A DNA stretch of 64,000 bases from Coleophoma eucalyptorum (Eukaryota > Ascomycota > Leotiomycetes > Helotiales > Dermateaceae), in NCBI GenBank assembly GCA_026120035.1, contig JALRME010000050.1, positions 62,001-126,000 on the forward strand. The letters are read 5' to 3'. This document shows positions 3,344-42,282 of this stretch, piece by piece; position 1 is the first letter of the stretch; every line of letters starts with the position of its first letter. The translations under genes were made by a program, and so were the position numbers. Under the pieces are notes generated by a model, which was given only the letters and a program-made list of their open reading frames with translations, did no database searches and was not told the DNA's origin.

Positions 3344-3428
3344 TGTGATTTATTCCAACTTCTTTTCTATTTGTAGTATATTAGCACTTATACCGTATAA
3401 ATCATAGCGGAGTAAATACCGTTATCTC

Positions 3429-3704
3429 TTAATTCCGCAGACCAGACTTGTGAGTTGTAATCTGGCAAAGTTCTAACTTCTGCTGTGAAATATAAAGGTG
3501 CCTTTCAGAAGCACACGAATACTTCACGTCCAAAAGATATATTCCAGAAGGATTTCTATATGTCTTTTTCAAGACGCCTCGGCCTTTATGCGAGGTGGGG
3601 TAATGGGTCAAACGCAAGGCGTGTCGTTTCAGAACACTAAACAGGTCTGTTCCGACGGAAGTTATGCGCTGATTATGTAAGCAGTAATCTAAGAATGCCT
3701 TCAT
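3429..3704 (-). CDS. Short hypothetical frame, possibly a relic
   Basis: A 91-codon ATG frame beginning MKAFLDYCLHNQRITS. The opening faintly recalls the FLxWxLHNxRI segment seen in fungal FluG/DUF3435-type proteins, but the rest gives no support and the length is far below that family. It is listed only because its composition looks coding; it may be a fragment or chance. Confidence 0.2.
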   Translation of the reverse strand: MKAFLDYCLHNQRITSVGTDLFSVLKRHALRLTHYPTSHKGRGVLKKTYRNPSGIYLLDVKYSCASERHLYISQQKLELCQITTHKSGLRN

Positions 3705-4714
3705 GTCAAGGTCCTTAGTATATATAGTATATTAGTATTTGTGTCAATGTAATTATAAGGAGTTTTGTTTTCTTAAGATTATTTTTTGAGTTGTGTTAGA
3801 AGTACATTCGTTTCAAAGCTACCTAGTTCCTTAAGGATATTTAACATGGCACAAGAGTCGATACAGCTTTTGAAGAATATTTGCTAAGCATGCTCTCAAA
3901 ATCTTTCTACTATAATAAACTATCGCAACTTATGACTGTCAATTACTCCTTGAATCATCAAAAGGTTACTCTCTGGTTTCCTAAGGGCAGGCAGGTATTA
4001 TTAGATGTTGGGTCCTCGGCTTAATCTTTGGATGACTATGATTAGCAACTTATCCAGTATAGCTGTGGGTTGTAGACTCAGGTGACGACTATGCATTGCG
4101 AACGCGAGTATGAAGTAAATGAAAGCAGCTTTTCCTGCATAGCAAGGCTCCTGGGCACGCGCTATCACATGACCCTGTCTCATACGTGGCAAACGAACGG
4201 ACGAAGGTCGGCAAAGCACCAAGGGTGTCTCATCCACGAGGCACGAGGCATGATGAACACTGTGGACAATTGCTCCTTGATACAGCACAGCCTAAATCTT
4301 TGGACCTGCATGAATACGAGGATTTGGACTGATGAATAGAAACAACAATATGACATTCCGTTTATATGGTTGGTACAGCTGGCTGGGTCGTCCTGCTTCG
4401 GTGTCTTGGGCAACTAAGGGGTTCAAAGTTATTTGGCAACAGATTGCTCCTTAGGCCTTCGTTCATAGTCAGCCCTTCTTCTAATCTTGGAGTTTTCGAA
4501 ATCGCTCTTAGACATAAAGACAATCGGAGTTATTTTCCTGTAAATTTCCTAATGAGCAAAATGTAAAATTCACGCGAGACTCATCCTTGGCATTTAGTGT
4601 GGTTGTCATAGCTGCGCCTTAGCACAAGGCACGTCCACTCAAGTAGAGTCCCTCTCAAGTCTGAGCACTGGCCCGATTCCTATGGATCAGTCAAAATTTA
4701 AGCTAATATGTACA
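3705..4714. other. Intergenic region without recognisable gene
   Basis: Several overlapping short frames on both strands (about 4000-4570) have no motif and contradict each other. No RNA gene was seen. Confidence 0.45.
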
Positions 4715-11913: not shown

Positions 11914-14900
11914 CTAATCCAGATTTTCATCTCGTATGGTGTCTAACATTTCTTGATAATCACTTTTACAAGCAATTGTTGTAGGATGCGTATCTCCTAA
12001 CGTTGACCTATACCCTTTCCAAGCCCTATAATAGAATATAGATGATTCTCTATACTGCTTTTGGTGTTCAAGTAACCTAGCAAGGTTGTAAACGCTGCTG
12101 AGCGTCTCAGGGTGCTCTTTACCGAGAACCTCCTCCTTGAGCTCGAGTGTGTGACGGCTCATAGTCTCGGATTCTGCGTACTTGCCCTGCCTGTCAAGCA
12201 CACGGGCGAGATTGTTCATGGTAATGAGCGTATCAGGGTGTTTCTTGCCAAGTACCTTTTCCTTCAACTCGAGTGTATGACGGCTCATAGTCTCGGATTC
12301 CGCGTACTTGCCTTGGCTGTCAAGCACAGTGGCGAGGTTGTTCATCGTCGTAAGCGTATCGGGGTGCTTCTTGCCAAGTACCTCCTCCTTCAGCTCGAGT
12401 GTCTGACGGCTCATAGTCTCGGATTCCGCGTACTTGCCTTGGCTGTCAAGCACAAGGGCGAGGTTGTTCATCGTCGTCAGCGTATCGGGGTGCTTCTTGC
12501 CAAGTACCTCCTCCTTCAGCTCGAGTGTATGACGGCTCATAGTCTCGGATTCCGCGTACTTGCCTTGGCTGTCAAGCACTAGAGCAAGGTTGCTCATGGT
12601 CGTCAGCGTAGTGGGGTGCTTCTTACCAAGCACCTCCTCCTTCAGCTCGAGTGTCTGACGGCTCATAGTCTCGGATTCCGCGTACTTGCCTTGGCTGTCA
12701 AGCACTAGGGCGAGGTTGTTCATCGTCATGAGCGTATCGGGGTGCTTCTTACCAAGCACCTCCTCCATGAGCTCGAGTGTGTGACGGTTCATATTCTCGG
12801 ATTCCGCATACTTGCCTTGACTGTCAAGCACACTGGCGAGGTTGCTCATGGTCGTCAGCGTATTGGGGTGCTTCTTACCAAGTACCTCCTCCTTCAGCTC
12901 GAGTGTCTGACGGCTCATAGTCTCGGATTCCGCGTACTTGCCTTGGCTGTCAAGCACTAGGGCGAGGTTGTTCATCGTCATGAGCGTATCAGGGTGCTTC
13001 TTGCCAAGTACCTCCTCCTTGAGCTCGAGTGTGTGACGATTCATAGTCTCGGATTCCACATACTTGCCTTGACTTTCAAGCACACTGGCGAGGTTGTTCA
13101 TGGTCGCCAGCGTACCGGGGTGCTTCTTGCCAAGTACTTCTTCCGAGAGCACGAGTTCCTGGCGGTGTATAGTCTCAGATTCAGTATACCTTCCTTGGCT
13201 TTTAAGCACAAGGGCGAGGTTGTTCATTGTCGTAAGCGTATCGGGGTGCTTCTTACCGAGGATGCTCTCTCTTATCTGTAGTTGATTCTTGTACAGAAAA
13301 TAAGCTGTATCAAATCTCCCCTGATTTTCCTCGAAATTTGCCATGTATCCGATCAGTGTAGCTCGTTTCAGTATAAACTCTTCGGACTTATACTCGTAGC
13401 TGATTACAGATGCTGCGTGGGGAAAGAGGTCCTCACACTCCTGCCATGTCCCGTAATCTCCATCTGGGAAATTTTCAATCATCAAGTCTAATGCTTTCTC
13501 TTGCCATTCACTTTCCCTTTCTTCTAATCTTATCCATCTCTGCGTAGATAGCTGTACAAGCCGATGAATCTCAAACTTAACCTCGCCCCCTTTTTCGACC
13601 TTGACTAACGAGTATGCTTGTAATATCCCTATTGCTTTGTTGAAATCGATGCTTTTTTTATTCTCTCCTTGCAGAAGAAGTACTTTTGGGATTGCTTGAC
13701 GATCTAATTGGACCATCAGTGATAGTAGTTCGGCAGCTCGTGGCCTATGCTGAGCTATTTGGTCGAATGAGAGTTTCCATGTCCTTATGACAGAATTCTC
13801 ACTGTCCGGATATCTTCGAGGGTCAGGTAAATCCTCTTCTAGGTAGTCTTGCAAATCAGAGTCGCTCTGGTGCAGCTCTACAATATATTGCTTTACATCT
13901 ATACTATTTTCATAGATAAACGCAGCGGCCTGGGTAATCGCTAACGGGATAAAACCTAGTGTTTTAAGAAGATCTTGAATATTCTGGGTATTTGCAGCGT
14001 CCACACTGGGTATCTTGCTGCGTAAAAGTTGTTCCGCTTCTGGTGGAGCCAGTGGTGTGACTACAACCGTTTCTCCACGATCTGTTAACCGTTGGCCAGT
14101 TTGATTATCGCGAGTTGTGATAATGACAGATCCCTGATCACTTCGAGGAAGGAAATTACTAATACCATTTTCTGTGTTTGTTGATGAATTAGAGTCAAAG
14201 AAAAGGTCTAGATCATCCGCGTTGTCTAGACAAAGGAACCATTGTCCACTTTCGGGCTTACTCAGCCAATCTCGTACTGTTATAAGAGTATTACTCTGTA
14301 GATCATCATTGACTGGTAAAGACATTGTCCTAGCAATATCTCTGTAAGCTTGCTCAAATTTGTCTCGAGTGCTGGTATACACCCAGAAGACATGGCATTG
14401 CGGATGACAATTTCTCCATATATAGCAATATTCGATCGCTATCTGAGACTTTCTTTTCAAAGCATTAGTAGAACCAAGTTTTTAATACAGGGTAAACTTA
14501 CCCAATGCCACCAATCCCGCAAAGCGCTACACGGCGTTGCTTCTCAAGCAAATTTGTGATCTGTTGTATTATCTCCTCTCGGCCAATAAAGTTCGAGTCC
14601 CGAACAAATGGCACTGTGAACTCTGGTTGCTGCCCAAATGTCGAAAGCTTGTCGAACTCATGACTTTTGTCCTTCTTGTCAACTTTCTTTCGTAGCCGTC
14701 TAAGCGCATTCTCTCGCCCTTCTCCATAAATCAATGGTAGAAAAACGCCGAAAATCCCAAGAAGACAGTAAGCCATATCTTCTTCATATTTAGTCTCTCT
14801 TTTTATTACCCATAGCACACGCTCATCCACACTGAATTTTTTTGGATCATATCCTTGGAGAGCTTTGACCGGAATTCCTGTTATCTCGTTGATTAGACTC

Positions 14901-15409
14901 TCGAGGGTCGTCCTGTCGCCAAGCCGCGTACAATCAGCGGAGAAGAATTCAACTGATTGAGGAGCAAGGAGTTCTTGAAGCGTCCAGCCGCGATTAAACC
15001 ACCTAGCTTTTCGAATGGCTGATTCGAAGCCCGAGCCAGACTCGTTTTTAGCCCCATCATCACTAGATGCCAAAACATCTGAGAGATAGACATAACACTT
15101 CGCCGCAGTTTTGTACCACCGAAACATAGAGTTTATAGCCCGTTGAAGCTCGGCTGCGTCACCTCTGTCGATACAACAAGTATCTACCCAGAAATATCGG
15201 AGGCCATCACGAGCAGCTTGCTCTCCGCAAAACTTAATCTTTTGATACCCAGCCTTAGACTTCCCAGAGCCTTCGTTCATATCTCTAAAAGTCACCTCTT
15301 CATCATCATCTCCCCAAGTATGCGACAGTATCGCATAAATGGGGATATTGGTGACAAAATCTTTAGTCAGGCTGACTTCGCCGTTAGGTTTAAGTTCCAG
15401 AAGGCGCAT
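11914..15409 (-). CDS. NLR-type protein: HET - NB-ARC - tetratricopeptide repeats
   Basis: Intracellular STAND receptor expected to oligomerise on ligand binding and trigger HET-dependent cell death. Exon 1 (15409-14502) carries an intact HET domain (IPIYAILSHTWGDDDEEVTF, YFWVDTCCIDR, FNRGWTLQELLAP, EEDMAYCLLGIFGV). Exon 2 (14452-11914) follows the 49-base intron 14453-14501, which splits the P-loop codon for Gly in GIGGIGKSQ. The NB-ARC domain shows Walker A GIGGIGKS, Walker B WFLCLDNADD and sensor GSVIITTRD. From about aa 700 come ten near-identical 42-aa TPR units of kinesin-light-chain type (LGKKHPDTLTTMNNLALVLDSQGKYAESE) and a degenerate cap. Total 1148 aa, no lesion. It is a paralogue of the gene at 25894-29614. 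Confidence 0.92.
12006..13264 (-). repeat. Ten tandem 126-base TPR-coding repeats
   Basis: In-phase coding repeats of 42 codons, nearly identical at DNA level, inside the HET-NB-ARC-TPR gene. Differences cluster in a few codons (DTL/NTL/TTL, MNN/MSN, RQT/RHT). The high identity implies recent duplication or gene conversion. Confidence 0.9.
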
Positions 15410-16295
15410 GATGTGAACACAGTAGAATTCCTTAGGTAGAGGGTGCTGAGGGCGAACCCATACAGACTGAGATCGATAGAGACCAACAGTGAGACTGGTC
15501 AGTGACGAGTGGAACGATGGTCTACTTCAGAGCCGTGAGATAAAAGGCTGTGAAAGTTGGGCTGCTTAGCAGAAGTGACATTGAGGTCGCGTTTCTCAAG
15601 GCTGACTGGATTCACGTTTGTTTCCGTCACATGATTGCATAGCTTACATATGGCGCAGTAAGCGTTCATTATTATTTTGGCCCCTGCAACTAGATCCTTA
15701 TACGAGACATGGGTCGGGCGTTAACCATGGTGGCATATAATTATACCTATTATATTGACATACGAGAACTCTGCGATCTATTTGCTTCCCCCATCACCAA
15801 AATTTCCCTCGGAAGCGTTCGCTGTTTATGCAACATAGTTGAGATTAACTTCTCCTTATTCCCTCGAAGATATAAAAGTAGCAGCAGGCAAAATCTTGCC
15901 CTCATAATCGTTGTGGCCGTCTCGATCTAGCTGGCGACAGGACCTCATTTGACTCTGACTACCCTTATCTTTTAATTATCACACTCACTGATTCAGCATG
16001 TTAAGGCTTATGAGCAGCATCTTTTACCACGAAACTCTCTGTGGAATATCTGCAGAATTTTGTGACAAAGGCCTAGCTTGTAGCGCTTGAGACTTGGATT
16101 TTATATTCAGAGCTTCCTCATCTTATCTGCAGCCAGCTAACACGCAAATATCATAACATGACGATGCTAGTTGTTGAGTATAGGCAGAATTATCAAGTTC
16201 TCTTCTGATGAAGTCGTGTTGTCTGTCTCCACCTCGCTCCAGCAAAAGGTTTCTTCGCATAAGAAAATTCTTCAAAAAATTATATCATTTGGAAT
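15410..16295. other. Intergenic region upstream of HET gene and tRNA array
   Basis: This holds the presumed promoter of the minus-strand HET-NB-ARC-TPR gene. No other coding or RNA signal was recognised. Confidence 0.45.
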
Positions 16296-16390
16296 TGCGT
16301 TCGCCGGGAATCGAACCCGGGGCCCATCGATGTTAACATCCTCAGAAGAGGTCATGGCAACGATGGATTTTACCACTAAACCACAAACGC
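16296..16390 (-). tRNA. tRNA-Gly (GCC), intron-containing
   Basis: The minus strand folds as a cloverleaf: acceptor GCGTTTG/CGAACGC, T arm with GGTTCGAATCC, anticodon stem CATCG/CGATG and loop TTGCCAT (anticodon GCC). The mature length is 71 nt plus a 24-nt intron one base 3' of the anticodon, the usual eukaryotic position. The discriminator is A; CCA is not encoded. Confidence 0.92.
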
Positions 16391-16426
16391 GTGTAAAGCT
16401 TGCCACATTAGATATATTGTTCGACT

Positions 16427-16523
16427 TGCGTTCGCCGGGAATCGAACCCGGGGCCCATCGATGTTGAACATTCTCCGAATGAGAACATGGCAACGATGGA
16501 TTTTACCACTAAACCACAAACGC
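16427..16523 (-). tRNA. tRNA-Gly (GCC), intron-containing, second copy
   Basis: The mature sequence is identical to the first copy. The intron is 26 nt and its sequence differs. It is separated from the first copy by 36 bases. Confidence 0.92.
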
Positions 16524-16560
16524 TTGAAAAGCGGATCGAATCAAATATATCTTTTGGACT

Positions 16561-16656
16561 TGCGTTCGCCGGGAATCGAACCCGGGGCCCATCGATGTTG
16601 AACACCCTCTGAAGAGGAGATGGCAACGATGGATTTTACCACTAAACCACAAACGC
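16561..16656 (-). tRNA. tRNA-Gly (GCC), intron-containing, third copy
   Basis: The mature sequence is identical to the other two copies. The intron is 25 nt. The gene is 37 bases from the second copy, completing a tandem array of three on the minus strand. Confidence 0.92.
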
Positions 16657-18547: not shown

Positions 18548-21500
18548 ATGCCACGCAACAGTAAAAGAGATATGACAGAAGAAGGGGAAAACGAGCCTCC
18601 TGCTAAGCGTCTCAGGAGCAGGCTACAGCCAGGAGTGGCATCATCGTTCGAAACAGCATCTACAAACTCAAATGCGCATGGCGACGATATCGCTAGTACT
18701 GTGGGTCGCACCGTAGCGGCTTTCCTAGTTAACATATAATTATGTATACTAATCGATGGTAGATGGACCCGATCTCCGAATTCTACCAGGAGTATAGTCA
18801 AAACTTTGACTCATACCGTAAGATAGCTTCTGAGGTGGAGTCGTTTTGCAACTCGATCCTCAAGTCCACGGCTAAGGAAAAGTTTCCTATTGATTTCATG
18901 ATCAAGTCTCGAGCCAAGGACCCCAAATCACTATTAGACAAATTACACCAACGGGATTCGCATAGGCAAAGGTACCATAATGAAGGAGATATTTTGGAAG
19001 ACCTTAAAGACTTGATTGGCGTACGAATTGTTTTAAGTCGCTGGGCTGATCTATCGCGCATAGAGAGGTTGCTCAAGGACAACTTTCTTTACATTGATAC
19101 CACATCACACCCAACAGATGATGAGCTAAGAAAGGTACTTGGTAGTGGTGACAAGCCCCGTTTTCGAGGCTATGATGCGCAGCATTTCTTAGTAAGACAA
19201 CGACAGACCTCACATACACCCTTTAAGAATGTGTGTATTGAGATCCAAGTAATGTCTTATTGGATGCTAGGATGGTCGTCACTAGAGCATGATATACTAT
19301 ATAAGAAGAAGAGAGGCGAACCATGCGACAATGAAAAAATGCTTCTAAGTATTCTCTTAGGATGCGCCAACTTAGGAGAACAGACTGCTGAACTCCTCGA
19401 ATCTGTCATACGGGACACAACTCGGACCGGATTTAACAAAGAAGATATACCACAGCAAGTGGTCAAAGAAGCCAAAACCATTCTTGAAGCCCACGGCATC
19501 GGCTTACCGTACGCTAGGGAGGCGCCGTTCAATGCCTTCCAGAGACAACACGAACCTACATGCCTAGAGAACACCCGTGTCAATATTCTTCACGAAATAA
19601 ACACCTGGGCTGACGCGCACGATGAACGTCGTATTTTCTGGCTGAATGGCTTGGCTGGTACTGGAAAGTCGACGATTGCCCGCACTATCGCCCGCAGATA
19701 CTATGAGGCGCAGCGGCTTGGGGCAAGTTTTTTCTTTACGAAGGGTAGCGGAGATGTGAGCCACGCCGGCAAATTTGTTACAACCATTGCTACGCAGCTT
19801 GCAACCAGTGTTCCTTCTCTCTATAGGCATATTTGTGCAGGTATAACTGAGCGTGGTGATATTGCAAGCAAGTCTCTAGGCGACCAGTGGCACCAACTCG
19901 TCCTCCGTCCCTTGTCAAAGCTCGACGGCAGTAATTGCCAATCCTCATATGTCATCGTTATTGATGCTCTCGACGAGTGTGATAACGATGATAATATCCG
20001 GACCATTCTAAAACTCTTAGCTGAAGCTCAATCATTACAGAAAGTCCGGTTACGAGTCTTTCTTACGAGCAGACCTGAGATCACAATTCGAGTTGAATTC
20101 AAAGAGATACCAGGTACGGAGCGCCAGGATTTTGTTCTCCATAGTATATCGACATCGATCATAAACCACGATATCTCAATATTCCTGGAACATTATTTTA
20201 GTCTTATCAGAAAGGAACGCTCTAATGATGCTGCCTGGCCTGGCGGAGACATTATAGAATCTCTGGTCAAGATTGCAAGTGGACTGTTCATTTGGGCTGC
20301 AACTACCTGTCGATTTATTCGCGAAGGGAAACGATTCGCCGCAAAACGGCTAGATACGATCCTTCAGGGCAGTGGTAGCGCAGTCACAGCGCCGGAGAAG
20401 CACCTCGACGAGATCTACACTACTGTACTGAGGCATTCCATCAATTCGGAATACACAGACGAGGAGAAAGAGGAGTCGTATTATTTGATAAGAAAAATCC
20501 TTGGAAGTATAGCTATCCTTTTTTCGCAGCTTTCTATAAACTCTTTGAGTGAGCTGCTAGATGTCACAACAAAGGAAATCGAGGAGACGCTAGAAGATCT
20601 ACACTCTGTGCTAGATATTCCAAAAGACCAAAACCGCCTACTGCGTCTCCACCACCCTTCATTTCGGGACTTTCTACTGAATACCGACAGGTGTAAAGAC
20701 CCAAATTTCCAGGTAGATGAGAAGCAAGTACATCAAATGCTGGCTACTAAGTGTATACAGCTTATGTCAACTTCTCTGACGCAGGACATTTGCAGTCTGA
20801 ACACCCCTAGTGTACTTGTGACCGATATCGAGAGTAGTCGAGTCGAGCGTAGTATCCCACTAGAGCTTCAATATGCATGTCTTTACTGGATCCAACATCT
20901 TCGAAAGGGTGCTTCTCAACTTTACGACAACGATGAAGTACATCAATTCTTACAAAAGCATCTACTTCACTGGCTTGAGGCTCTTGGATGGATAGGGAAG
21001 ATATCTGAGGGGATTTATGCAATTACTTCCTTAGAATCAATTACTACTGTAAGCTTACTATATGGGTTCTAGTATATACTAATAAGAGTAATTAGACAGA
21101 TAAGAATATCGAGCTATCTAGTTTCATTTACGATGCGAAGCGTTTTATCCTTAATTTTCGCACAATAGCTGATTTATCACCCCTCCAGCTATATTCTTCT
21201 GTAATCATTTTTACCCCAAAGGAAAGCATAATACGAAAAACATTTCAGGATAGAATACCGGATTGGATTATACAGCAGCCAAAGATAGAATTAGGTTGGA
21301 ATGCCGTTCTACAGACGCTCGAGGGACATACTGCATTAGTCAGCTCTGTGGCTTTCTCACATGACTCTAAGCTGGTCGTATCAGCCTCCTATGACGAGAC
21401 TATCAAGATCTGGGACGCCGCCTCTGGCTCCTGCCAACAGACGCTCGAGGGCCATACCAGAAGGGTCAACTCTGTGGCTTTCTCACACGACTCTAAGCTG

Positions 21501-23180
21501 GTCGTATCAGCCTCCTATGACGAGACTATCAAGATCTGGGACGCCGCCTCTGGCTCCTGCCAACAGACGCTCGAGGGCCATACCGGATCTATCAGCTCTA
21601 TAGCTTTCTCATATGACTCTAAGCTGGTCGTATCAGGCTCCGATGACCGTACTATCAAGATCTGGGACGCCGCCTCTGGCTCCTGCCAACAGACACTCGA
21701 GGGCCATACCGGAGAGGTCAACTCTGTAGCTTTCTCACACGACTCTAAGCTGGTCGTATCAGGCTCCTATGACCAGACTATCAAGATCTGGGACGCCGCC
21801 TCTGGCTCCTGCCAACAGACGCTCGAGGGCCATACCAGAAAGGTCAGCTCTGTGGCTTTCTCACATGACTCTAAGCTGGTCGTATCAGCCTCCTATGACG
21901 AGACTATCAAGATCTGGGACGCCGCCTCTGGCTCCTGCCAACAGACGCTCGAGGGCCATACCGGATCTATCAGCTCTATAGCTTTCTCATATGACTCTAA
22001 GCTGGTCGTATCAGGCTCCGATGACGAGACTATCAAGATCTGGGACGCCGCCTCTGGCTCCTGCCAACAGACGCTCGAGGGCCATACCGGATATATCAGC
22101 TCTATAGCTTTCTCACATGACTCTAAGCTGGTCGTATCAGTCTCCGATGACGAGACTATCAAGATCTGGGACGCCGCCTCTGGCTCCTGCCAACAGACGC
22201 TCGAGGGCCATACCAGAAAGGTCAACTCTATAGCTTTCTTACACGACTCTAAGCTGGTCGTATCAGCCTCCGATGACCAGACTATCAAGATCTGGGACGC
22301 CGCCTCTGGCTCCTGCCAACAGACGCTCGAGGGCCATACCGGAGAGGTCAACTCTGTGGCTTTCTCACACGACTCTAAGCTGGTCGTATCAGCCTCCTAT
22401 GACCGTACTATCAAGATCTGGGACGCCGCCTCTGGCTCCTGCCAACAGACACTCGAGGGCCATACCGGAGAGGTCAACTCTGTAGCTTTCTCACATGACT
22501 CTAAGCTGGTCGTATCAGCCTCCATCGACGAGACTATCAAGATCTGGGACGCCACCTCTGGCTCCTGCCAACAGACGCTCGAGGGCCATACCGGATATAT
22601 CAGCTCTATAGCTTTCTCACATGACCCTAAGCTGGTCGTATCAGGCTCTGGTGACGAGACTATCAAGATCTGGGACGCCGCCTCTGGCTCCTGCCAACAG
22701 ACGCTCGAGGGCCATACCGGAGAGGTCAACTTTGTAGCTTTCTCACACGACTCTAAGCTGGTCGTATCAGCCTCCTATGACCGTACTATCAAGATCTGGG
22801 ACGCCGCCTCTGGCTCCTGCCACGAGACAGCTCAATTTACCAATATCCAGAGCCTATCATTTGATAGTATAGATTCTACTCTTATTACAAATATAGGCCG
22901 TATCAAGGTGAATAGAACTAGACCCTATTTTATTTCTCAGCCGGTCCAAGTGCCTGAAGAAGTTCAAGAGGAAAGAAATAAAGTCAATCGTCAAAATGTA
23001 ACTATAAACGGATCATGGGTGATGTGGAACTTACAGAACTTACTCTGGTTGCCACCTGATTTCCGGAGTTCCTGGTCTATTGTTTCACCGTGCGGGTCAA
23101 TAGTTGTCATTGCCTGTAATAATGGGAAGGTTTTAATGATTGGATTTTCTATTGATAAGCTTAATAGCCTTACTTCATAA
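18548..23180 (+). CDS. NLR-type protein: RelA/SpoT-like - NACHT - WD40 repeats
   Basis: Three exons (18548-18700, 18763-21048, 21096-23180) join in phase to 1507 aa. Both introns have TACTAAT branch sites. A short N-terminal exon carries a basic PPAKRLRSR patch. At about aa 90-265 lies a RelA/SpoT nucleotidyltransferase-like domain: RAKDPKS (R101, K103, S107), DLIGVRI (D134, G137, R139), GYDAQH (Y188, H192) and IEIQ (E211, Q213) with SLEHDILYK. The Arg usual after EIQ is Met215. NACHT follows: Walker [10 protein letters not shown] (K353), Walker [11 protein letters not shown], and RVFLTSRPE. Twelve near-identical WD40 units span about aa 886-1390, then a family-typical tail ([12 protein letters not shown]). 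The expected role is a cytosolic receptor whose effector may make or transfer a pyrophosphorylated nucleotide; that activity is inferred. Confidence 0.9.
18701..18762 (+). other. Intron 1 of RelA/SpoT-NACHT-WD40 gene
   Basis: GTGGGT donor, TACTAAT branch site and GGTAG acceptor immediately before an ATG. It is in phase with the upstream 51-codon exon. If transcription starts later, the ATG at 18763 could serve as an alternative start. Confidence 0.6.
21049..21095 (+). other. Intron 2 of RelA/SpoT-NACHT-WD40 gene
   Basis: 47 bases, GTAAGC donor, TACTAATA branch site and ATTAG acceptor. Removing it links the NACHT exon to the WD40 exon through the family-typical segment [13 protein letters not shown]. 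Confidence 0.8.
21314..22826 (+). repeat. Twelve tandem 126-base WD40-coding repeats
   Basis: In-phase 42-codon units (TLEGHT...[13 protein letters not shown]), nearly identical at DNA level. Variation is concentrated after GHT (RRVNSV, GSISSI, GEVNSV, RKVSSV, GYISSI) and at SxSxDx (SASYDE, SGSDDR, SGSYDQ, SVSDDE, SASIDE, SGSGDE). Regular spacing and antisense reading frames are by-products of the repeat. Confidence 0.95.
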
Positions 23181-25893: not shown

Positions 25894-28800
25894 TCAACGA
25901 CTTGGTATTATTCCAAGCTTTTGAAACAGCCTGTGCCGTTTTGTTTTTACAGTAATTTCTTTAACACCTGGATCCGGTGGTCCTTGTAAATCGTCCACAG
26001 CCTCGTCAGCCCCTACTGGAGTTTTATTCTCTACCACGGTATCTAAAGCACTGAGTTTGTCTCGCAAAGCCTGAGATTCAAGGTGATCGGGCCCGAAGAC
26101 TTTCTCATACCCGATTAAGGTCTTTGAATACATAATCCTAGCTTTTACAATATTAGCCTGGGTTTCGAACAGAGAGCCTAGATTGCTGATCGTGTTTAAC
26201 GCTGGGATATAAGTGATGATATTCTCTAAACCTAGTGCCTTTTCGTAGCCTTGTAGCGCCTGCTGGTACATCTGCTCGGCCTCGACTGGCTTGCCCTGGT
26301 AGGCGTAGAGGTTCCCTAGGTTATTGACTGTGTCAAGGGTCGACGTGTGCTCTAGACCTAATGCCTTCTCCTTGCCTTGTAACGCTCGTTGGTACATCTG
26401 CTCGGCCTCGATTAGCTTGCCCTGGTCGGCGTAGATGACCCCTAGGTTATTGATTGTGTCAAGGGTCGACGTGTGCTCCAGACCCCGTGCCTTCTCGTTG
26501 CCTTGTAACGCTCGCTGGTACATCTGCTCGGCCTCAACTAGCTTGCCCTGATTGGCGTAGAGGTTCCCTAGGTTATTGACTGTGCTAAGCGTCGACGTAT
26601 GCTCCAGACCCCATGCCTTCTCGTAGCCTTGTAGTGCTCGTTGGTACATCTGCTCAGCCTCGACTAGCTTGCCTAGGTCCTTGTAGATGACCCCTAGGTT
26701 ATTGACTGTGTCAAGGGTGGACGTGTGCTCCGTACCCCATGCCTTCTCCTTGCCTTGTAACGCTCGTTGGCACATCTGCTCGGCCTCAACTAACTTGCCC
26801 TGGTAGGCGTAGAGGTTCCCTAAGTTATTGACTATGCTAAGTGTTGATGTATGCTCTGCACCCCATGCCTTCTCGTAGCCTTGTAGAGCCCGCTGGTACA
26901 TCTGCTCAGCCTCGATTAGCTTGCCTAGGTCGGCGTAGAGGAGACCTAGGTTATTGACTGTGTTAAGCGTCAACGTATGCTCTGGACCCCATGCCTTCTC
27001 CTTGCCTTGTAACGCCCGCTGGTACATCTGCTCGGCCTTGACTAGCTTACCCTGGTAGGCGTAGAGGTTCCCTAGGTTATTGACAGTGGTAAGCGTCGAC
27101 GTGTGCTCCGTACCCCATGCCTTCTCCTTGCCTTGCAACGCTCGTTGGTACATCTGCTCGGCCTCGACTAGCTTGCCCTGGTCGGAGTAGAGGAGACCTA
27201 GGTTGTTAAATATATCAAGCGTCGATGTGTGCTCCAGACCTAATGCCTTCTCCTTGCCTTGTAACGCTCGTTGGTACATCTGCTCAGCCTCGACTAGCTT
27301 GCCCTGGTCGGCGTAAAGGAGACCTAGGTTATTAACTATATCAAGCGTCGATGTGTGCTCCAGACCTAATGCCTTCTCGTAGCCTTGTAGCGCCCGCTGG
27401 TACATCTGCTCAGCCTTGACTAGCTTGCACTGGTCGGCATAGAGGAGACCTAATATATGACATTCCCATTCAGCATCATTGTCCGGAACCAAGTTGTTAA
27501 GAATCATATATGAACATCTGATTGCATGCTGGAGAAGCCGTCGTTGTGTCAGCCACGGCCGAAAACTCTGCTCTCCGGGGGCATGGGATCCGATAAACTT
27601 GATAGCTAGCCTAGCGAGTCTATGATCCCACACTTGGTTTAGAACGTGAATTGTCCATGAGTGAACGCACGCATGAATGCTATACCCGCGTGACTCGATC
27701 GAATCTTGCGAAGACATGTCTACTTCTACTAGCCCATAGCTACTTAAAACCCGCACTGCCTCATGGAAGCTTATTTCGTCCTTTGTCAGTTCTTGTACCC
27801 AGTCTGGGTCGTCCGAGTCACTATGCTGGAGAAGCTCTAACCAGATATCCTGATTATCGAAGTACGCCCAGAAGCAAAGAAGCTTAGCGGAGAGTGCATT
27901 TTGCTGTTGGACATGGTCGTATGATATTTGCCACGTAGAGTAAAGTGTTCGGTCCTCATACGTGTCCAGTTCTGGACTCGATTTTTGGAGTTGCACCCAC
28001 GACTGCTTGTATAAACGCAAATAGTCCGAAACACTTACCGCTACTTGATCGAGATACGCTCCAGCAGTAGTGAGTGCAAGAGGCAGTCCATCTAACAATC
28101 CAGCAAGCGTAGTAGCATCGGGATCTGGTATTAAATATTAGATATATATCATGGAAATATAGAGTGTTCTTACCACTACTTAGTCCTTCCCGGTTCGAAA
28201 TGTTTGACAAAATCTTAAGACTATCTTGTATATCGTGGAGCTTACGAATCTGGATTGATTTACCAATTTTAACTCGTGACGACCGCGTAGTTATAATAAT
28301 TGATCCTTGGTGTGATTCGGGGAGGAAATTTCGAATATCTATAGCTATAGGGTCCAAGTTTTCAGGTAATTTGGGATTGTCGTAATTGTCGAAAATCATC
28401 AGCCATCGCGTATTGTTTGGCCGACTAAGCCACATTTTAACAGCATCAATTACCTCGTCGAGGCTTTCATTTGTATCCACGTTGTTAAGGCCAAGAGCCG
28501 AGGGGTGTTCTCGTAATATCTGCTTAGCTACTCTAGCAAAGCTCTCCTTTAGAGAATCCTCGTCTTTGATGTTTAGCCAGAATATGGCCGAGTAGCTATT
28601 CTTGTGCCGCTTTGCATATGTAATACTAAGTTGTGTCTTGCCAATTCCCCCGAGACCGTGGAGAACAACTGTTCGGCGGGAGCCGTCTCCGTTGAGTTTC
28701 CTATGTATATCCACGAGCTCTGTATCTCTGCCTACGTATTGTTCGACATCGTGAACATTGGAGAGACTAAAAGTTATTGAGAAGTCCTCGCGCTTGAGCC

Positions 28801-29614
28801 CTAATCTAATAAGTACCTTTTTAAATACACTTCACCTTTACTTTTAATAGATACTTATGACAAGAGAGAACAAGTTACCTTTTGAAGCTTTATCAATCTC
28901 CGTTTGAAGTCGGCTCAAAGCCTTATCCTTCCCTTCACTGTAGATAAGCGGCATTTTGACGTCAAAAATACCTAGTAGCGAGTATGCAATGTCTTCTTGG
29001 CGATAAGTCTCACGGTTTGCTGCCCATGATAATCGTTCAGTGACGCTGAAATCGGACAACGGGCTCCCTTGAAGAGCACCGATTGGAATTCCGGTTATGT
29101 CGCAGATATGTCGTTCTAAGGATGCCTTACTACCTAGTAGTTCCCCTTCTTTTGAGAAGAACTCCACTGATGCCGGTGCAATAAGCTCTTGCAGAGTCCA
29201 GCCTCGAGTGAACCATTCGCTTTTCCGAAATGTCGATTCCCAGGGCTTGTTAGAGCCCTCGGCCGAATCGCAGCGAGGCCGCGAAACATCTGGCAAATAA
29301 ACATAGCAGTGGGTTGCATGCTGGTACCAGTGAAACATCGAGTTGATAGCTTCCTGAAGCTCTGTGCTACTGGATTTGTCGATACAGCAGGTGTCCACCC
29401 AAAAATATTGCAAGCCGTTACGCTTAGCTTGTTCGCCACAGAACCGTATCTTGCTATAGCCAACCTTGCTCTTGCCCGTACCGTCTATCAGATCTTCGAA
29501 AGTAACCTCCTCCGCCCCCCATCTGTGCGAAAGTATAGCGTACTTGGGTATATCGCTTTCAAAGAACTCGGCCAGGCTTAAATCGTTGTCGTTGTTATAG
29601 TATAGCAGTCGCAT
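25894..29614 (-). CDS. NLR-type protein: HET - NB-ARC - tetratricopeptide repeats (second copy)
   Basis: Three exons (29614-28879, 28800-28174, 28124-25894) join in phase to 1197 aa. The introns are 28801-28878 and 28125-28173. The HET domain is intact (IPKYAILSHRWGAEEVTFED, YFWVDTCCIDK, FTRGWTLQELIAP, EDIAYSLLGIFDV) and closely parallels the 11914-15409 gene. NB-ARC shows Walker A GLGGIGKTQLS, Walker B WLMIFDNYDN, GSIIITTRSS and the GLPLAL motif of the winged-helix junction. About 11 TPR units follow (LGNLYAYQGKLVEAEQMYQRALQGKEKAWG-type), then a divergent cap and a basic C terminus. The TPR consensus (GLEHTSTLDTVNN) differs from that of the first copy, so the repeat arrays expanded independently while the HET/NB-ARC parts stayed similar. 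Confidence 0.92.
26075..27460 (-). repeat. About eleven tandem 126-base TPR-coding repeats
   Basis: In-phase 42-codon units within the second HET-NB-ARC-TPR gene. They are less homogeneous than the array at 12006-13264. Variable residues lie at YADQ/YAYQ/YKDL/YANQ and around the (W/L)G(L/T/P/A)EHT motif. Confidence 0.85.
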
Positions 29615-31065
29615 TATTCAACGAGGTTCGGGGGATCGCAAAACGGAGGTTATCGGTAATGATCGAGCTGTAGAGTCGGCATAGATGCGAAGTGAAGTGA
29701 AGATTTGCGCGAAGCTATCGGGTTGAGGCTGCGCACTCAGCTGAGCGGCAGTATGCTGGTACCACAGTAAGCGCGCATGACCGGCCCATCGCTCCAGCTC
29801 ACCGCAGAACTTCTGCATATCATAGTTGGCAGACGATAGGCAAACGATACGCTTAATTAAGCTATGGTTTGTCTAATCGCTAAGGCGGAAGCTGAAGGCA
29901 CGGAGAAGTGGATGACAGAAATCTAGGGGATCCAGAATCTACGTCCGATTACCTGTTTGGTGTCCGAGCTCCCACTTGGAATTTTCGGATCTCTAACCTT
30001 ACAACTTGGGCAAATATTTATCCTCAGTCCAGCGCTTAATTGCGTCATCAGATGCTGGAAAGACGGCCACACTTCAGATAAATTCACTATAAGTTACAGG
30101 TTGATGTAGAAATAATACGGCTAGGGTGATTTTAAGAAGACATTATATTATCACGATAAAGCTACACCTTGGTGTATTGTGTGCCTCCCTTTAACCCGGA
30201 TAAGCTCAGCTTATGGGTTTCCCAGTGCTCTATATCTTTAAAGTTTGGAACTCTATTCAGCCTTAATAGGGCCTTCGCATTATTAGCCCGAAATGTGGAA
30301 ACATGCCGATGCCTAGGATAGAGTAAATGGGAATAGCTAAACCGGCTTTCGGTGCCATCGACAGGACCATCGACAGAAGGACCAAGACCGTAGAAGTTTC
30401 TCACTGGCAGCCATACCATGTGGGAAAATGGCCATATACTTGCGAGGGGGAGACCTGGTGGAGAGACTTAGGACCCTAAACAAGGGATCCATCCCGGCAA
30501 GGTGGGGGTTCTCGCTACCTAGGAACGGACAGACGTTAGCTCATCCCATTGAAACTTAATCAATTGTTAACGATAAGCGACTACGTACTGGGAAATACGA
30601 CTGATCACGGCGAGGTCAGGATATGATGCCAATCTCGCGCCAAGCTGTAGCAACCTTTACACTCGGTTTGTATCGTATGAGCTCCGAGCAAAATATTTCT
30701 ATAATCTATTCACGGGTTTCTTGATTCTTTAAACTTGGCTTCGACATTCTGAGAACCCAGCTTCTAGATTATGTTTCCATTGCAAGCATAGACCTCAGCG
30801 AGGAAACAATAATGTTTTGGAACGGAAGGGGTTCCAGAGATTACACAACATCCCAACTCCTAGTTCCCAAGAGCTTACAGTCGTTTTTGATGTCATAAGG
30901 CCAGCCGTTGGCATTCGCTTGTCGATGATGAGGGGAAGGGGAAAGATTGCTTCGGGACGGGAGAGCTCGTGCAGTCTGGTTTCGCCAACTTCATGACTAT
31001 CCATATTACACGTCCTTCAATACTTAGCACTGACATTTCGTGGTTGCTTGCTTCACTTAGCCGGA
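29615..31065. other. Intergenic region between divergent NLR genes
   Basis: This holds the presumed promoters of both neighbours. A minus-strand ATG frame (30419-30162, 85 codons) has a fairly protein-like composition but no motif; it may be a relic. Confidence 0.4.
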
Positions 31066-32155
31066 ATGCGCAAACGCGATCGCCTGGTGCCAAAGGCTTT
31101 TCGGCCAAAGTCCGCGACATCCAATGCCACCCCAGCCTCGTCTTGCGTGGTTCAACCAGCATCGCAAGTAGCAGCCACTCAGAGTACCACTACTCCTACA
31201 GCAGCTTCTAGAAATCGACCCCTTGAGCTTGCTATACAGAAGTACCTGGAAAAGATTCCCGATGTGGAGAAAGAAGCCTTTCGTGATGCTGCGAGGAACC
31301 TCCATGAAGATAACTTAGTCTCAAAGGTTCGAGAATACGACGAGGCACATAATCGAAGCTCGGCTTTCCGACCTCAAGCTGAACGCCTTTTCAACTTTCT
31401 CGGCGTACTGAATCGATTCATGGGCGGCATCGCTATTGGCATACAAGCGTCTCCGGAGATATCGTCCCTTGTGGTCGGCGCGGTCCGGATTGTCATCGAT
31501 CTAGCAATTGACTTTGTGCAATTCTTCAGCAAATTGAGCGGCATGCTGTACCAATTTGAAGATTATCTGGGACCTCTAGCCCATTACGCAAACGCCTCAG
31601 AAGACTCTGTACTGCTGCAGGAAACCATCGCAAATGTCTACGTAAATCTGCTCAAGTTCTGCCAGGAATCGCGCTGTGTCTTTATCGACACAAATGGCAA
31701 TTGCCGAAATGGACCTCGTGGAGATTGTTCTTGCGACAACAATGGGAGCCTTTTGAGACCGGATTTGGTCCTATCAGAACAGATATGCAGCATCATCTTA
31801 ACGTTTTGCTCCACGCTAGCCAAGCACAGCAGCTAAATGATACTCAAGAAGCTAGGCTCCGAGACAAAAGTAAGCTTGTAGATCCCGCAAGGTTTGTCCG
31901 TGAGTAGAAATTGTGTGATTAATATCATCATAGTGGAAGAAAGGGAAAGGTTCCTTCATTGGATATCTACGGTCGATTTTGAAAAAGTTCACGATGCAGT
32001 TTATGCACAAAAACATGAAGGTACAGGTGACTGGTTAATTCAGAAGAAGGAGTTCCAATCTTGGTTCAACAAATCAGAGTCATCATTACTATGGTGTTAT
32101 GGAAAACGTAAGTACAACCTAAGACGATATATGAAAACAAGCTTATAAGAAGCAG

Positions 32156-32180
32156 CTGGTGCTGGAAATTCAGTACTTGC
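32156..32180 (+). other. 25-base microexon encoding the P-loop
   Basis: It is flanked by introns 32108-32155 and 32181-32228. It supplies PGAGNSVLA of the Walker A motif and is only recoverable by phase-aware joining. Confidence 0.65.
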
Positions 32181-33882
32181 GTAAGTTAGTAGACACCATC
32201 ACAGTCCAGATATCTAACAAGGATACAGATCAAACGTTTTAGAGTACCTTACTGCTAGATGCGCTTTGGATGAAAACAAAGCCATCTGCTTTGCTTACTA
32301 TAACTATTGGACTCCGGAGCTACAGGACCCCACTCAGATAGTAGGCACTTTGCTCAAGCAGCTTTGCCAAAATAGAGAAACTATTCCTCATTGGCTGCTC
32401 AAATTCAAACGCGACTCACATAGTCCTTCGACGGCTAGCACGCAAGAATCATTCACCGCACTCACGAAGGACTTAAACTTTAAGGAAGTATACATACTTA
32501 TCGATGCGCTGGACGAGTGTCCTGACAGCGAAAGGCACCGCATTATTGGCATTCTTACAGAAATAATGACAGGTCTACCATGTGCGAAGATCTTTATCAC
32601 GAGTCGAATGGAGTCTGACATCGTGCGCGCTTTTGAAGAGATCAGTACGCCTGTAATCCCAATCAAAGCAGAGAGCGTCGCAGCAGATATCGAGAGCTTC
32701 GTTAACAGTGAAGTGAAGAAGCTTCGGAAAGGCTACTTCGGGAAGAAGCTCTATTTGACAAGCGACCATCTTGAAGAAAAAGTCATTCAAACTTTGACAG
32801 GGAAGTCAGAAGAAATGTAAGTTGGAGCCTCAACAAATGCTAGTTCAACCTGCTAACTTTAAAATAGGTTTCTTTGGGCAAATCTACAATTACAGAACCT
32901 ATGCCAGGTCAGTAAGGAGAAAAGACATCGATCGATTGAGGCTGCACTTCAAACGCTTCCGCATGGCCTTGACGAAACCTACACTCGTATATTAGCGCGA
33001 ATTGAGACCCAACCAACGCGCCTCAAAGCTCTAGCGCTTAACTGCCTGATGTGGATACTTTACGCCAAAAGACCGCTAACAACTGGAGAGTTACAACATG
33101 CGCTTGCACTTGCGACAGACAGTACATGCCAAAAGCAAATCGATATAGACGTGGATAAGGTCGAGGTCATTATTGAAGCTTGCGGCAATCTGATTGTGGA
33201 GGAATACGACGCAATCCGCCCGATCCACTATTCAGTACAGGAGTTCTTTATGAAGTCCCCTGGCAAGGTACCACAGCAAAGTATCCAGGAGAATCTGAAA
33301 GATCTATCATTTGTTCAATCAACACTTGCTGAGATTTGCCTAAGATATGTCCAACTTGGAATGCTTAGCCAACCGTGCAAGAAATAGCATGAGCTTTTTG
33401 ATTGTCTTCGAATAGCCAAATTTGCTTGCTATGCTGCTCTGTACTTTGACGATCATCTTTCACAATGTACAAATGTTCCAAGCGGTACTCTACACTTAGT
33501 AACAGGCCTTCTCAACCAAGATAGTGAATTCCTTGCTGCACTTCTTCAAATTAGACATCTCCAGGGTAGGTTCGATATCTCGACAATTTTGGAAAGTTTC
33601 AAGCAGGTCAATTTTGTGGTTTCGGCAAGCACAATTATATATGGAACGCGACTATTCGATATAAGCTACATTCAGACACAGTTAGTGGGTGTTACACCGC
33701 CTGCTTATGCACTACACCAAGCGTCGTCCGCCGGGTCGATTAACGCCGTCAGGCGGTTAATAGAGCAAGGATATGATGTTAACGAAGATGACGAAGACGG
33801 TACTCGCCCATTATACTATGCATCATTACGAGACGATGACAAAGTCGTTGAACTCCTACTTTGCACGGGCGCCGATATCAAC

Positions 33883-34479
33883 ATACAAGGCGGAGGCTAC
33901 GGTAGCGCGCTCCAGGCGGCCTCATATGGAGGTCAAGACAAGACTGTTAAGCTACTGCTTAGCAAAGGCGCCGATATCAACATACAAGGCGGAACCTACG
34001 GTAGTGCACTCCAGGCGGCCTCATATAGAGGTTACGACAAGATCATCGATCTACTGCTTAACAAAGGCGCCGATGTCAACATACAAGGCGGACGCTACGG
34101 TAGTGCACTCCAGGCGGCCTCAGAGGGAGGTCATGATAAGACTGTCGAGCTACTGCTTAACAAAGGCGCCGATGTCAATATACAAAGCGGAACCTACGGT
34201 AGTGCACTCCAGGCGGCCTCGTTAGGAGGCTACGACAAGATCATCGATCTACTGCTTAACAAAGGCGCCTATGTCAACATACAAGGCGGACGCTACGGTA
34301 GTGCACTCCAGGCGGCCTCAGAGGGAGGTCATGATAAGACTGTCGAGCTACTGCTTAACAAAGGCGCCGATGTCAACGTGCAAGGCGGAGTCTACGGTAG
34401 CGCATTCCAGGCAGCCTTCGCGGAAGGGCACGACAAAATTGTTGAGCTGCTACTTAACAAGGGCGCTAAACGCGATTTT
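33883..34479 (+). repeat. Six near-identical 99-base ankyrin-coding repeats
   Basis: In-phase 33-codon units (IQGGxYGSALQAAS, then DKTVELLLNKGADVN). Units alternate between two subtypes (GGHDKTVELLL and GYDKIIDLLL), suggesting duplication of a two-unit block. Confidence 0.9.
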
Positions 34480-34549
34480 TAGCACGGCCCCCAGCAGTAG
34501 TAAACAGTGCAATGATCGGACAAATTGCCGAGAGCAAAAGCCATTGCCG

Positions 34550-39685: not shown

Positions 39686-42282
39686 ATGGATCCTTTATCA
39701 GTAACAGCCTCGATTGTAGGCATCCTCACAGCAGCGCAGCAAGTGTCCTCTTGCATCTCCAACGTTGTCTCCAAGGCTAAGAAGGCGCCAGACGAGATGC
39801 TAGAGCTCAAAACCAAGGTCGATGGCCTATATACGGTTCTCTATCAGCTACAGTCTATTCTATTAGGCCGCGAAAGAGCTCAACAGTCGCGAACTACCCT
39901 AATTCTCGTAGAACAAGTGACGATGTCACTTTGTGCGTGTGTGGTAATCTTCTCCAAGCTAAATACGTTCGTTGTAGCTCTAGAGAATGAAACCCAACGA
40001 GACGTGGTGGAAAGGATTAGATGGGCGCTGAAAGCGGACGAACTTAACGAGTATCTAACCAAATTGGAGAGGCAGGAAAACTCATTGTCTTTGATGTTGA
40101 CTATTCTGACATGGTAGGGTTGATATGAGCATACAATTATGGAGCTGTAGGCTAACTCAAAGTTCATAGTGAGTCTAACTTTGAAGCTCACTCAGCTGTT
40201 AGTCGTCTAGAACAAGCTGTGAATGCTCTTCTTCAAAGTCATGAACGATTGCTTCAGCAGCAAGCTGTAACGGACTACGAATCTATCTATCCCCGAGAAG
40301 AAGCAAACGAAAAAGGATCAATGCTCTCTAGTAGCAGCAGTGGCGAGAACTCGTCGCAGGAGAACGTGCTTCATGTGTTTGACTTCCAGGAGGACCTGGA
40401 TTCTTCTAGGGTCTATCGGAGAATTCAAAGAAGTCGGATTGAAGGCGACGAAACGTTTTCTATATATTCCAAAACCAATCATACGATGGCTTGGTCTATG
40501 ATGTCTGGATTGAGCCTATCAGAAATTTCTAATATTGGCGTACTCCAACTGCCACTTTCCAAAGACCAGATAAGCAATAATGAACTCTACCAGTTTGGGA
40601 ATTTAAGCATTGAAAATACTCAAACTAAACCTCCCAGCAGCAACAGCAGCAACAGCAGCAACAGCAACAACAACAAAAATAGAAGGAAGACTTTTATGGC
40701 ATCAAATGAGTACAGCATCGAGGACTGGAATATCAAGGTCAAGACCAGCTATCTCGGGATCATGAACCAGCTTATTGCAAAGACCTTCACACACCAAGAT
40801 CTAATATGGGTAGTTCCTTGCATTGGTGGCATAGAATATCCCATGGACTCACCCGGAGAGTCATTTACGGTACTTGTAGCTGGGGAAAGTTTGGAAGTTG
40901 AAGTTCAATACCATGTTGTAGACAACATTACCTGGGTCTTGTTGGATTCGCCAGTATTCCGCCAACAGGCGAAAGCCTATCCATATCCAGATGCCGATGG
41001 CCCATCCAGCGCACCCTTTTATTCCCTGTGGAACCAGTCCATTGCAAGGATGATGCAGCGTTTTGAGTTTGATAACTACCTAGCTTTTGACTATCGGAGT
41101 GCCCTGGCATTACTCTATTTGCTTCCCAAAACGGTGCCCTGCGTTTTTATGCACACTGACAATGGCCCGATTTCACATGCGAATTTGGGATGGGATGCTG
41201 AACTAGCAGAAACGAGCAGATTGCTTAGCTTTACGTTTGGGCTCGAAAAATGGAAGGTCGAGCAGTATCTACTATGCAGGTCAGAATGGAATTTATTATA
41301 CATGATTACGAGATACCTCGCGCTCAACCAAAATGGGAAGGGTTACATCAGTGTCGGCGAAAAGCACACCTACAATTCAAAGTCTCAGAGCCACAAGACA
41401 ATTGCCCTAGCCGGAATCAATGAGATGACCCATCTTCCAGGGCCCGACCCATCGGACACGTTACCCATGGATGAGGGGTTCGAGATTCACGAGGCTGCGT
41501 ATATTGATGCGGATTGGGAAGCGAGAAGGCCTAAAATGCGGATGCAGCTCCAGGAATGGGCTGGGCTTGAAATAAATCCCAATGCTGAAATATTCATGTT
41601 CATCGGTCGCTGGGCGTACGAAAAGGGACCTGATATCATTCCTGAAGTGATGCAGGAACTTTTGGCAGAGAATTATGACATCCAGCTTGTATGCGTAGGA
41701 CCGATCATGGATGAGTACGGTCATAGTGCGGCCAAAAAACTTCAGCACTTGATGTCTATTTACCCTAAAAGGGTCTTCAGCAAACCCGAATTTACAGCTG
41801 TACCTCCGTACGTTTTCACGGGGCCAGAATTTGCCATAATACCCTCGCGCTATGAACCAGATGGTCTGGTAGCGATAGAATTCTGCAGGAAAGGAGCTCT
41901 ACCAATTGGACCTCTAATTGGGGGGCTCGGTCGAACCGTATGTATTTCAACCCACAAACCCATAGCAGCTAGATCAATTAACATTGCGTTTACATAGCCG
42001 GGCTTCTGGTACACGACGAGGAATCGATATACCAATAAAATTTCAACTGAGACAGCATTCCTGCAACGTCGTCTGAAGAAAGGTATCCGGGAGGCGATAG
42101 CGACGAAGCTTCCAGAGAGACAGGCGATGAGAGCGGCTGGTGTTAATGCAAGATTCCCGGTTCAGAGGTGGATTGAACAAATAGACCGATTTCAAAACGA
42201 TGCTATCCACGCACACTCACAAGCTATGAGGCGTAAGAACCGAGATTCAGCACAACTGCCTACACGTCGACTTATTAAGTAA
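39686..42282 (+). CDS. PF17111-type N-terminal domain fused to degenerate alpha-1,3-glucan synthase GT5 domain
   Basis: Three exons (39686-40113, 40170-41937, 41998-42282) join in phase to 826 aa. Residues 1 to about 290 are a full Helo_like_N/PigL_N domain (MDPLSVTASIVGILTAAQQV, LEQVTMSL-like core, MLTILTCES, TAWS-type motif seen as MAWSMMSGLSLSEISNI), otherwise the N terminus of fungal STAND-related proteins. A Ser/Asn linker (about 298-313) leads to a region collinear with the GT5 domain of Ags1-type alpha-1,3-glucan synthase: IEDWNIKVK, HQDLIWVVPCIGGIEYPMD, LLYLLPKTVPC, FMFIGRWAYEKGPDII, KRVFSKPEFTAVPPYVF, IPSRYEPDGLVAIEF and ARFPVQRWIEQID. The GH13 and multi-pass export domains are absent. 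Active-site motifs are changed: K-x-G-G-L reads KTSYL, NDYHG reads FDYRS, LHNAEFQG reads MHTDNGPI. It is probably a pseudoenzyme in an intact gene. Confidence 0.88.
40114..40169 (+). other. Intron 1 of fusion gene
   Basis: 56 bases, GTAGGG donor and CATAG acceptor. It splits the Cys codon of TILTCES, a family-typical position context. Confidence 0.75.
41938..41997 (+). other. Intron 2 of fusion gene
   Basis: 60 bases with GTATGT donor and ACATAG acceptor, phase 0. Skipping it would end the protein at a TAG overlapping the acceptor. Removing it restores the GGLG...PGFWY segment of glucan synthases. Confidence 0.8.

Follow-up and report, generated by a model that had tools for sequence, protein, structure and literature searches.

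In fungi, the executioner bundle of MLKL is described as having counterparts in HeLo and HeLo-like domains (PMC12881547, PMC10197012, PMC9815663), and kinase or pseudokinase domains occur in some HELL proteins (PMC12881547, PMC10197012); excerpts of these papers are the source for both statements. Clusters of fungal NLR (NOD-like receptor) genes are likewise described in the consulted part of PMC12258605. In fission yeast, the alpha-glucan synthase Mok1 is activated by Rho2 via Pck2 (PMC8228308, in excerpt), which puts alpha-1,3-glucan synthase (AGS) into one circuit with the RhoGAP, Cdc24, Ras and Rho partners treated below. Here we describe a gene of Coleophoma eucalyptorum that joins an N-terminal part with a HeLo-like match to a copy of the glycosyltransferase family 5 (GT5) domain of AGS. 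It lies in a stretch of 64,000 nucleotides (assembly GCA_026120035.1, contig JALRME010000050.1, positions 62,001–126,000, forward strand), referred to below as the window.

A three-exon fusion gene and its orthologue

A preliminary description, made from the letters alone, had proposed a three-exon gene. Splicing the exons (Table 1) gives a single open frame of 826 codons plus a stop, in agreement with it, and both introns are bounded by GT...AG. In a search of a database of 5.8 billion proteins, in which 7,998 candidates were scored, the top-scoring candidate was P0001 (BP6252_11008) of Coleophoma cylindrospora. This 810-amino-acid (aa) protein, labelled as hypothetical by NCBI and as an azaphilone-pigment-cluster domain by UniRef, is a single annotated product with the same fusion, which is thus present in a related genome. 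It is 83% identical to the window protein over aa 1–300 (96% over aa 1–68, 82% over 69–180, 68% over 181–205 and 80% over 206–290) and 72% identical over the GT5 part, with the same value in each half. Because P0001 is one annotated protein that contains the whole fusion and aligns gap-free in both parts (aa 1–290 and 326–817), neither an assembly chimera nor a pair of adjacent genes is likely. A PADLOC scan of P0001 gave no match.

The N-terminal 290 residues are, judged by sequence, probably a PF17111 (HeLo-like) bundle followed by an unnamed second motif. PF17111 is widespread. Its match to aa 1–68 of the window protein scores 23.7 bits, under the cut-off of 27.2, and that in P0001 scores 28.1 bits, just over it; all 14 members of the module alignment (A1) match at E <= 1, the best at 3.9e-11. 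The module as modelled could be an MLKL-type bundle, short of proving one. For the second conserved part (aa 206–288) no Pfam family was found, and models of relatives have low confidence there; the motif, SRVYRR...WSM.SGLSLSEISNI.V..LP, is a possible switch or signalling element. Neither NACHT nor NB-ARC gave a Pfam match in the window protein at E <= 1, and repeats were also not found.

Lost and retained residues of the GT5 part

To control the motif assignments, the GT5 part was realigned with MAFFT to 119 AGS homologues (P0002–P0120, the matches listed below P0001, of 485 found). All 112 of these scored at KxGGL have its GG, all 119 have both the H and the G at NDYHG, and no position of LHNAEFQG is kept in fewer than 117 of 118. 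The corresponding segments of the window protein are given in Table 1; P0001 reads KIGPH, FDYRS and IHSDNGPK. Part of the MHTDNGPI/IHSDNGPK stretch is a 5-residue insertion in this alignment, common to the two proteins. Both orthologues have FDYRS as well as the insertion that follows MH/IH, so those losses are older than their split, whereas the KxGG loop has changed differently in each (KTSYL and KIGPH). Intact GT5 motifs after realignment are thus ruled out against the AGS homologues.

The preliminary description had called all three motifs lost, and this needs narrowing. By alignment, the glycine loop has gone, as have the histidine of DYH and the segment NAEFQG; K in KxGG, D in xDY and H in xH are each still present. 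The donor-side motifs persist, GRWxxxKG with its R and K and E-x7-E with its two glutamates; the retention of EPDGLVAIEF noted earlier therefore stands after realignment. An HMM (hidden Markov model) scan likewise bore out the expected domains in part. PF00534 (Glycos_transf_1) passes its cut-off of 26.4 in the window protein (29.3 bits, aa 609–721) and falls below it in P0001 (23.5 bits), PF17111 stays below cut-off in the window protein, as given above, and PF08323 has no Pfam match in either. A GT5/GT-B fold is predicted from a model of P0001, with low confidence around E-x7-E. The orthologues differ at 139 amino acids in the GT5 part, across which ~8 stops would be expected, counting one nonsynonymous change per difference and taking P0001 as annotated, and none is seen. 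Together, the motif controls, the predicted fold and the open frame make loss of catalysis with retention of the fold, as first proposed, a well-supported conclusion.

The same genome contains six AGS loci (L035–L040). LHNAEFQG, the R/K motif and E-x7-E are intact in all six; NDYHG is found in five, with NDFHG in the other; KIGGLG is intact in the five loci read at this stretch (all but L040). Several of these loci carry stops in six-frame matches, from introns or decay. In a tree of AGS sequences the pair formed by the window protein and P0001 sits on a branch of 2.78 changes per column, and at this length its position inside the tree could not be placed. L040 is the most divergent of the same-genome loci in that tree.

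Exchange of partners on a common module

In all 14 matches to aa 1–300 the C-terminal part is foreign. Six have RhoGAP and four LIM-type domains (P0126 assigned by eye against a consensus, with no Pfam match); G-alpha, kinase, Cdc24 and AGS occur once each. An alignment of fourteen module sequences has 28 invariant columns. From a profile search with the module came 81 proteins, in many cases short pieces. A Pfam scan of 20 of the 81 added Ras together with WW, MIT and a G-alpha-binding adenylate cyclase piece (P0206), and a PDB search revealed a Rho relic in P0177 (E 8e-8) and a weak Ras relic in P0157 (E 0.007). The Cdc24 member P0131 passes four Pfam cut-offs; P0147, P0152, P0155 and P0156 are shorter. 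A search of this genome for the adenylate-cyclase parent of P0206, run without a positive control, gave no match. P0160 of Clonostachys byssicola has a sub-threshold DUF676/PGAP1 (SesB-like lipase) match before the module and LIM, possibly through a gene-model join.

An unrooted tree built from 37 modules gives full support to a clade of the AGS pair. With four RhoGAP modules, of which one comes from this genome, the pair makes up a 6-row set with support 100/99. Nine partner classes require 8 changes on this tree, the possible minimum, when nine rows without a recognised partner are excluded, and 14 when those rows count as a tenth class. Among the matches listed, the AGS fusion occurs in two genomes only.

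Loss of catalytic residues recurs in the partners. The arginine finger is replaced by A, F or S in seven of seven RhoGAP members scored (a broken copy excluded); L041, the best same-genome RhoGAP homologue, which we take to be Sac7, has R at this position. Two RhoGAP fusions lie on one contig (C46) of the C. eucalyptorum genome (G000). The first, L033 (C46:174500-182500, gene at ~1873–3920, i.e. ~176.4–178.4 kb of the contig), has an open model of ~647 aa with an intron after LTC as in the window gene, and reads IFARSG, with Ala at the finger, where L041 has IFRLSG. The second, L034 (C46:29500-37500, at ~1700–3315, or 31 kb), is broken, reads IFIRSG, with Ile at the finger, and its match to the module covers just the later part. 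Counted in a simple pairwise manner between these two copies, dN/dS (the ratio of nonsynonymous to synonymous change) is 0.19 in part of the module, 0.30 from motif 2 to the RhoGAP start, and 0.31 and 0.32 in two parts of RhoGAP. The RhoGAP domain, now without its finger in both copies, has been under purifying constraint. Weaker bundle-only matches (23–40%) were found on four further contigs of the same genome.

The Ras and Rho copies, one member each, lack GTPase motifs, the P-loop of P0177 being judged by eye against a consensus; in the G-alpha member P0129, DVGGQR reads DIGNRR by the same kind of comparison. The dead-copy pattern holds for AGS, RhoGAP, one Ras, one Rho and, by eye, one G-alpha member.

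Upstream of the fusion gene, between 488 and 34482, the window contains one HET open reading frame (ORF) and four NLR-type loci, read as ORFs and not as verified gene models; the gap from the last locus to the fusion start is 5.2 kb. A HET ORF also lies ~3 kb from the broken fusion at C46:31 kb. At C46:176 kb, five ORFs of at least 150 aa in two scanned flanks include none that is NLR-like, ~6 kb beside the fusion gene lying outside these flanks, and NLR neighbours are not supported as a family-wide feature there. Between two of the NLR-type loci of the window, at 16296–16656 on the minus strand, there are three tandem Rfam tRNA matches of 95–97 bases with near-equal scores, probably containing introns; ARAGORN with bacterial settings gave no tRNA at this place.

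Table 1. Features of the fusion gene and of the upstream part of the window (positions in the window)
Feature	Position	Strand	Remarks
Exon 1	39686..40113	+	aa 1–142 and first two bases of codon 143; PF17111 HeLo-like helical part
Intron 1	40114..40169	+	place and phase (LTC|ES) equal those of the modelled intron of the same-genome RhoGAP paralogue
Exon 2	40170..41937	+	remaining N-module, linker, bulk of GT5 domain
Second conserved part of N-module	40357..40605	+	aa 206–288; F.F..L..SRVY...WSM.SGLSLSEISNI.V..LPL
S/N-rich linker	40612..40692	+	aa 291–317; sole internal gaps against P0001 fall here
KTSYL	40741..40755	+	KIGGL in synthases; realignment
FDYRS	41086..41100	+	NDYHG in synthases; realignment
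MHTDNGPI	41149..41172	+	LHNAEFQG in synthases; insertion in common with orthologue
GRWAYEKG	41605..41628	+	R and K kept; realignment
EPDGLVAIEF	41854..41883	+	E-x7-E kept; realignment
Intron 2	41938..41997	+	~4 bases off an intron position of AGS locus L035; a candidate for an inherited AGS intron
Exon 3	41998..42282	+	end of GT5 C-terminal subdomain and stop
HET ORF	488–1438		
HET and TPR ORFs	11914–15526		NB-ARC match below threshold
RelA_SpoT-NACHT-WD40 ORFs	18763–23180		
HET, NB-ARC and TPR ORFs	25894–29617		
NACHT-type NPHP3_N and ankyrin ORFs	30997..34482	+	DUF7708 match below threshold; nearest NLR-type locus

Possible roles and comparison with known systems

The HeLo-like/MLKL parallel and the place of AGS in the Rho circuit lead us to favour a gated executioner with interchangeable baits. 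By sequence and by analogy, the window protein is somewhat more probably than otherwise a one-protein, MLKL-like immune sensor and executioner, in which a HeLo-like bundle is gated by a dead GT5 bait. The N-terminal bundle would attack membranes, the second conserved motif would act as a regulatory segment, and the C-terminal copy of AGS would hold the bundle in check. A binder, modifier or ligand of the real synthase or of its regulators, such as an effector or toxin of an attacker or an incompatible self-variant, would also meet the GT5 copy, and the resulting change would free the bundle, so that the hyphal compartment is killed or sealed. With the module joined to other components of Rho/Ras/G-alpha polarity and of the wall, the family would guard this circuit as a set. 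Relatives that carry copies of growth-control proteins, several of them broken, suggest a family of bait-carrying immune sensors. The decoy or scaffold, raised as a speculation in the preliminary description, gains strength from the module common to polarity and signalling relatives, several of them dead, and from the four upstream NLR-type loci. It might, as also raised there, monitor glucan synthesis or something that attacks it.

The dead-copy pattern does not extend to every partner class. The kinase class shows no fusion-specific loss of catalytic residues, and nothing visible marks the Cdc24 and LIM copies as dead; LIM has no catalysis to lose, and the LIM copy is 82% identical to the same-genome L054, presumably Rga1. 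A pseudokinase made by the fusion was dropped as a candidate, the nearest same-genome homologue, L055 (C4:286891-287850), already having, by eye, HLH in place of HRD and DAG in place of DFG. L055 itself is an apparent pseudokinase outside the fusion family.

The main rival, and of the rivals the one that suits these facts best, is a regulator, which we hold to be rather unlikely: the helical module would target a membrane or polarity site, and the dead copies would be competitive scaffolds that, by engaging the normal partners of Rho, Ras, Cdc24, RhoGAP or Ags1, damp or place polarity and wall synthesis. Eight of ten partner classes (not kinase and MIT) fit one circuit by what their parents do, folds and some binding motifs are kept, and from their sequences the Cdc24 and LIM copies look able to bind. 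Against this stand the NLR-type neighbours of the window gene, a module matching a family used by fungal cell-death effectors (PMC9815663, in the part consulted), one broken copy among three in the same genome, the weak lipase match in P0160, and a distribution of the AGS fusion, in two genomes among the matches listed, that is unlike that of a core regulator.

A chance chimera of abundant, promiscuous PF17111 and duplicated gene pieces, drifting or recently born and with no selected role, seems very improbable to us. The long GT5 branch, the broken copy at C46:31 kb and the wide spread of PF17111 would suit such an origin, but not the missing stops and the absence of internal gaps in GT5 between orthologues, the dN/dS of 0.19–0.32 in the RhoGAP relatives, or the loss of the same residue in every RhoGAP member scored. 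Least probable of all is a changed enzyme, anchored by the helical part, whose GT5 domain would still bind UDP-glucose, with transfer or hydrolysis, or act as a sensor of nucleotide sugar: the K, D, H, R/K and E-x7-E positions are kept, but GG, the DYH histidine and NAEFQG are gone, though kept in nearly all of 112–119 synthases, and KxGG is altered differently in the two orthologues. Binding of UDP-glucose without turnover would suit the bait model too.

More tentatively than for the single gene, and with rather less than even confidence, we propose a NOD-less, MLKL-like class of receptors (NOD, nucleotide-binding oligomerization domain) in which one HeLo-like executioner module would carry rotating pseudoenzyme baits from the Rho/Ras/G-alpha polarity and wall circuit. 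If so, the fungal immune system guards the growth machinery hub by hub, with AGS as one bait. The targets of fungal immune receptors are largely unknown, and recognisable sensor copies, several of them dead, would show which proteins come under attack, namely Rho, Ras, Cdc24, G-alpha and glucan synthase. The MLKL plan of executioner bundle and pseudoenzyme switch would then apply not just to kinases but to several unrelated enzymes.

Earlier descriptions exist both of integrated decoys in fungal NLRs and of HELL-pseudokinases. Searches of 5.39 million open papers, subscription papers and bioRxiv being outside their scope, gave among the papers listed no description of the GT5 fusion or of a HeLo-like family with this set of partners; the architecture, first noted as undescribed, does have an unstudied orthologue in databases.

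Compared with Ags1/Mok1, the GT5 part is collinear (39–48% identity among the matches listed), and the window protein lacks the amylase and the membrane/export domains, as had been noted, together with the conserved catalytic segments (KxGGL, NDYHG, LHNAEFQG); the GT5/GT-B fold, as predicted, and E-x7-E remain. HET-S, HELLP and other HeLo/HELL effectors (PMC12881547, PMC9815663, both in excerpt) have a PF17111/HeLo-type N-terminal part in common with it, whereas its C-terminus is a large folded pseudoenzyme, not an amyloid signalling motif. Integrated-decoy NLRs of plants, and NLRs of Sordariales in which CHK-2 kinase domains are a proposed decoy (PMC12258605, in the consulted part), likewise carry a housekeeping copy on an immune-type protein. 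The GT5 part appears to be such an inactive duplicate of a cellular protein, and the NLR-type neighbours are a further likeness; of an immune-receptor carrier, the HeLo-like match and these neighbours are what we observe. In contrast to those NLRs, no NACHT, NB-ARC or repeats were found in the window protein, and the bait would sit directly on an executioner-type domain. Closest are MLKL, a four-helix executioner with a pseudokinase, and the fungal HELL-kinases and pseudokinases (PMC12881547, in excerpt), which also combine an N-terminal bundle, probably of the same superfamily, with a dead enzyme and no NOD. The window protein follows this plan, with a predicted pseudoenzyme C-terminal to a modelled helical bundle, but here the pseudoenzyme is GT5, and in the relatives its place is taken by RhoGAP, Ras, Rho, G-alpha, Cdc24 or LIM.
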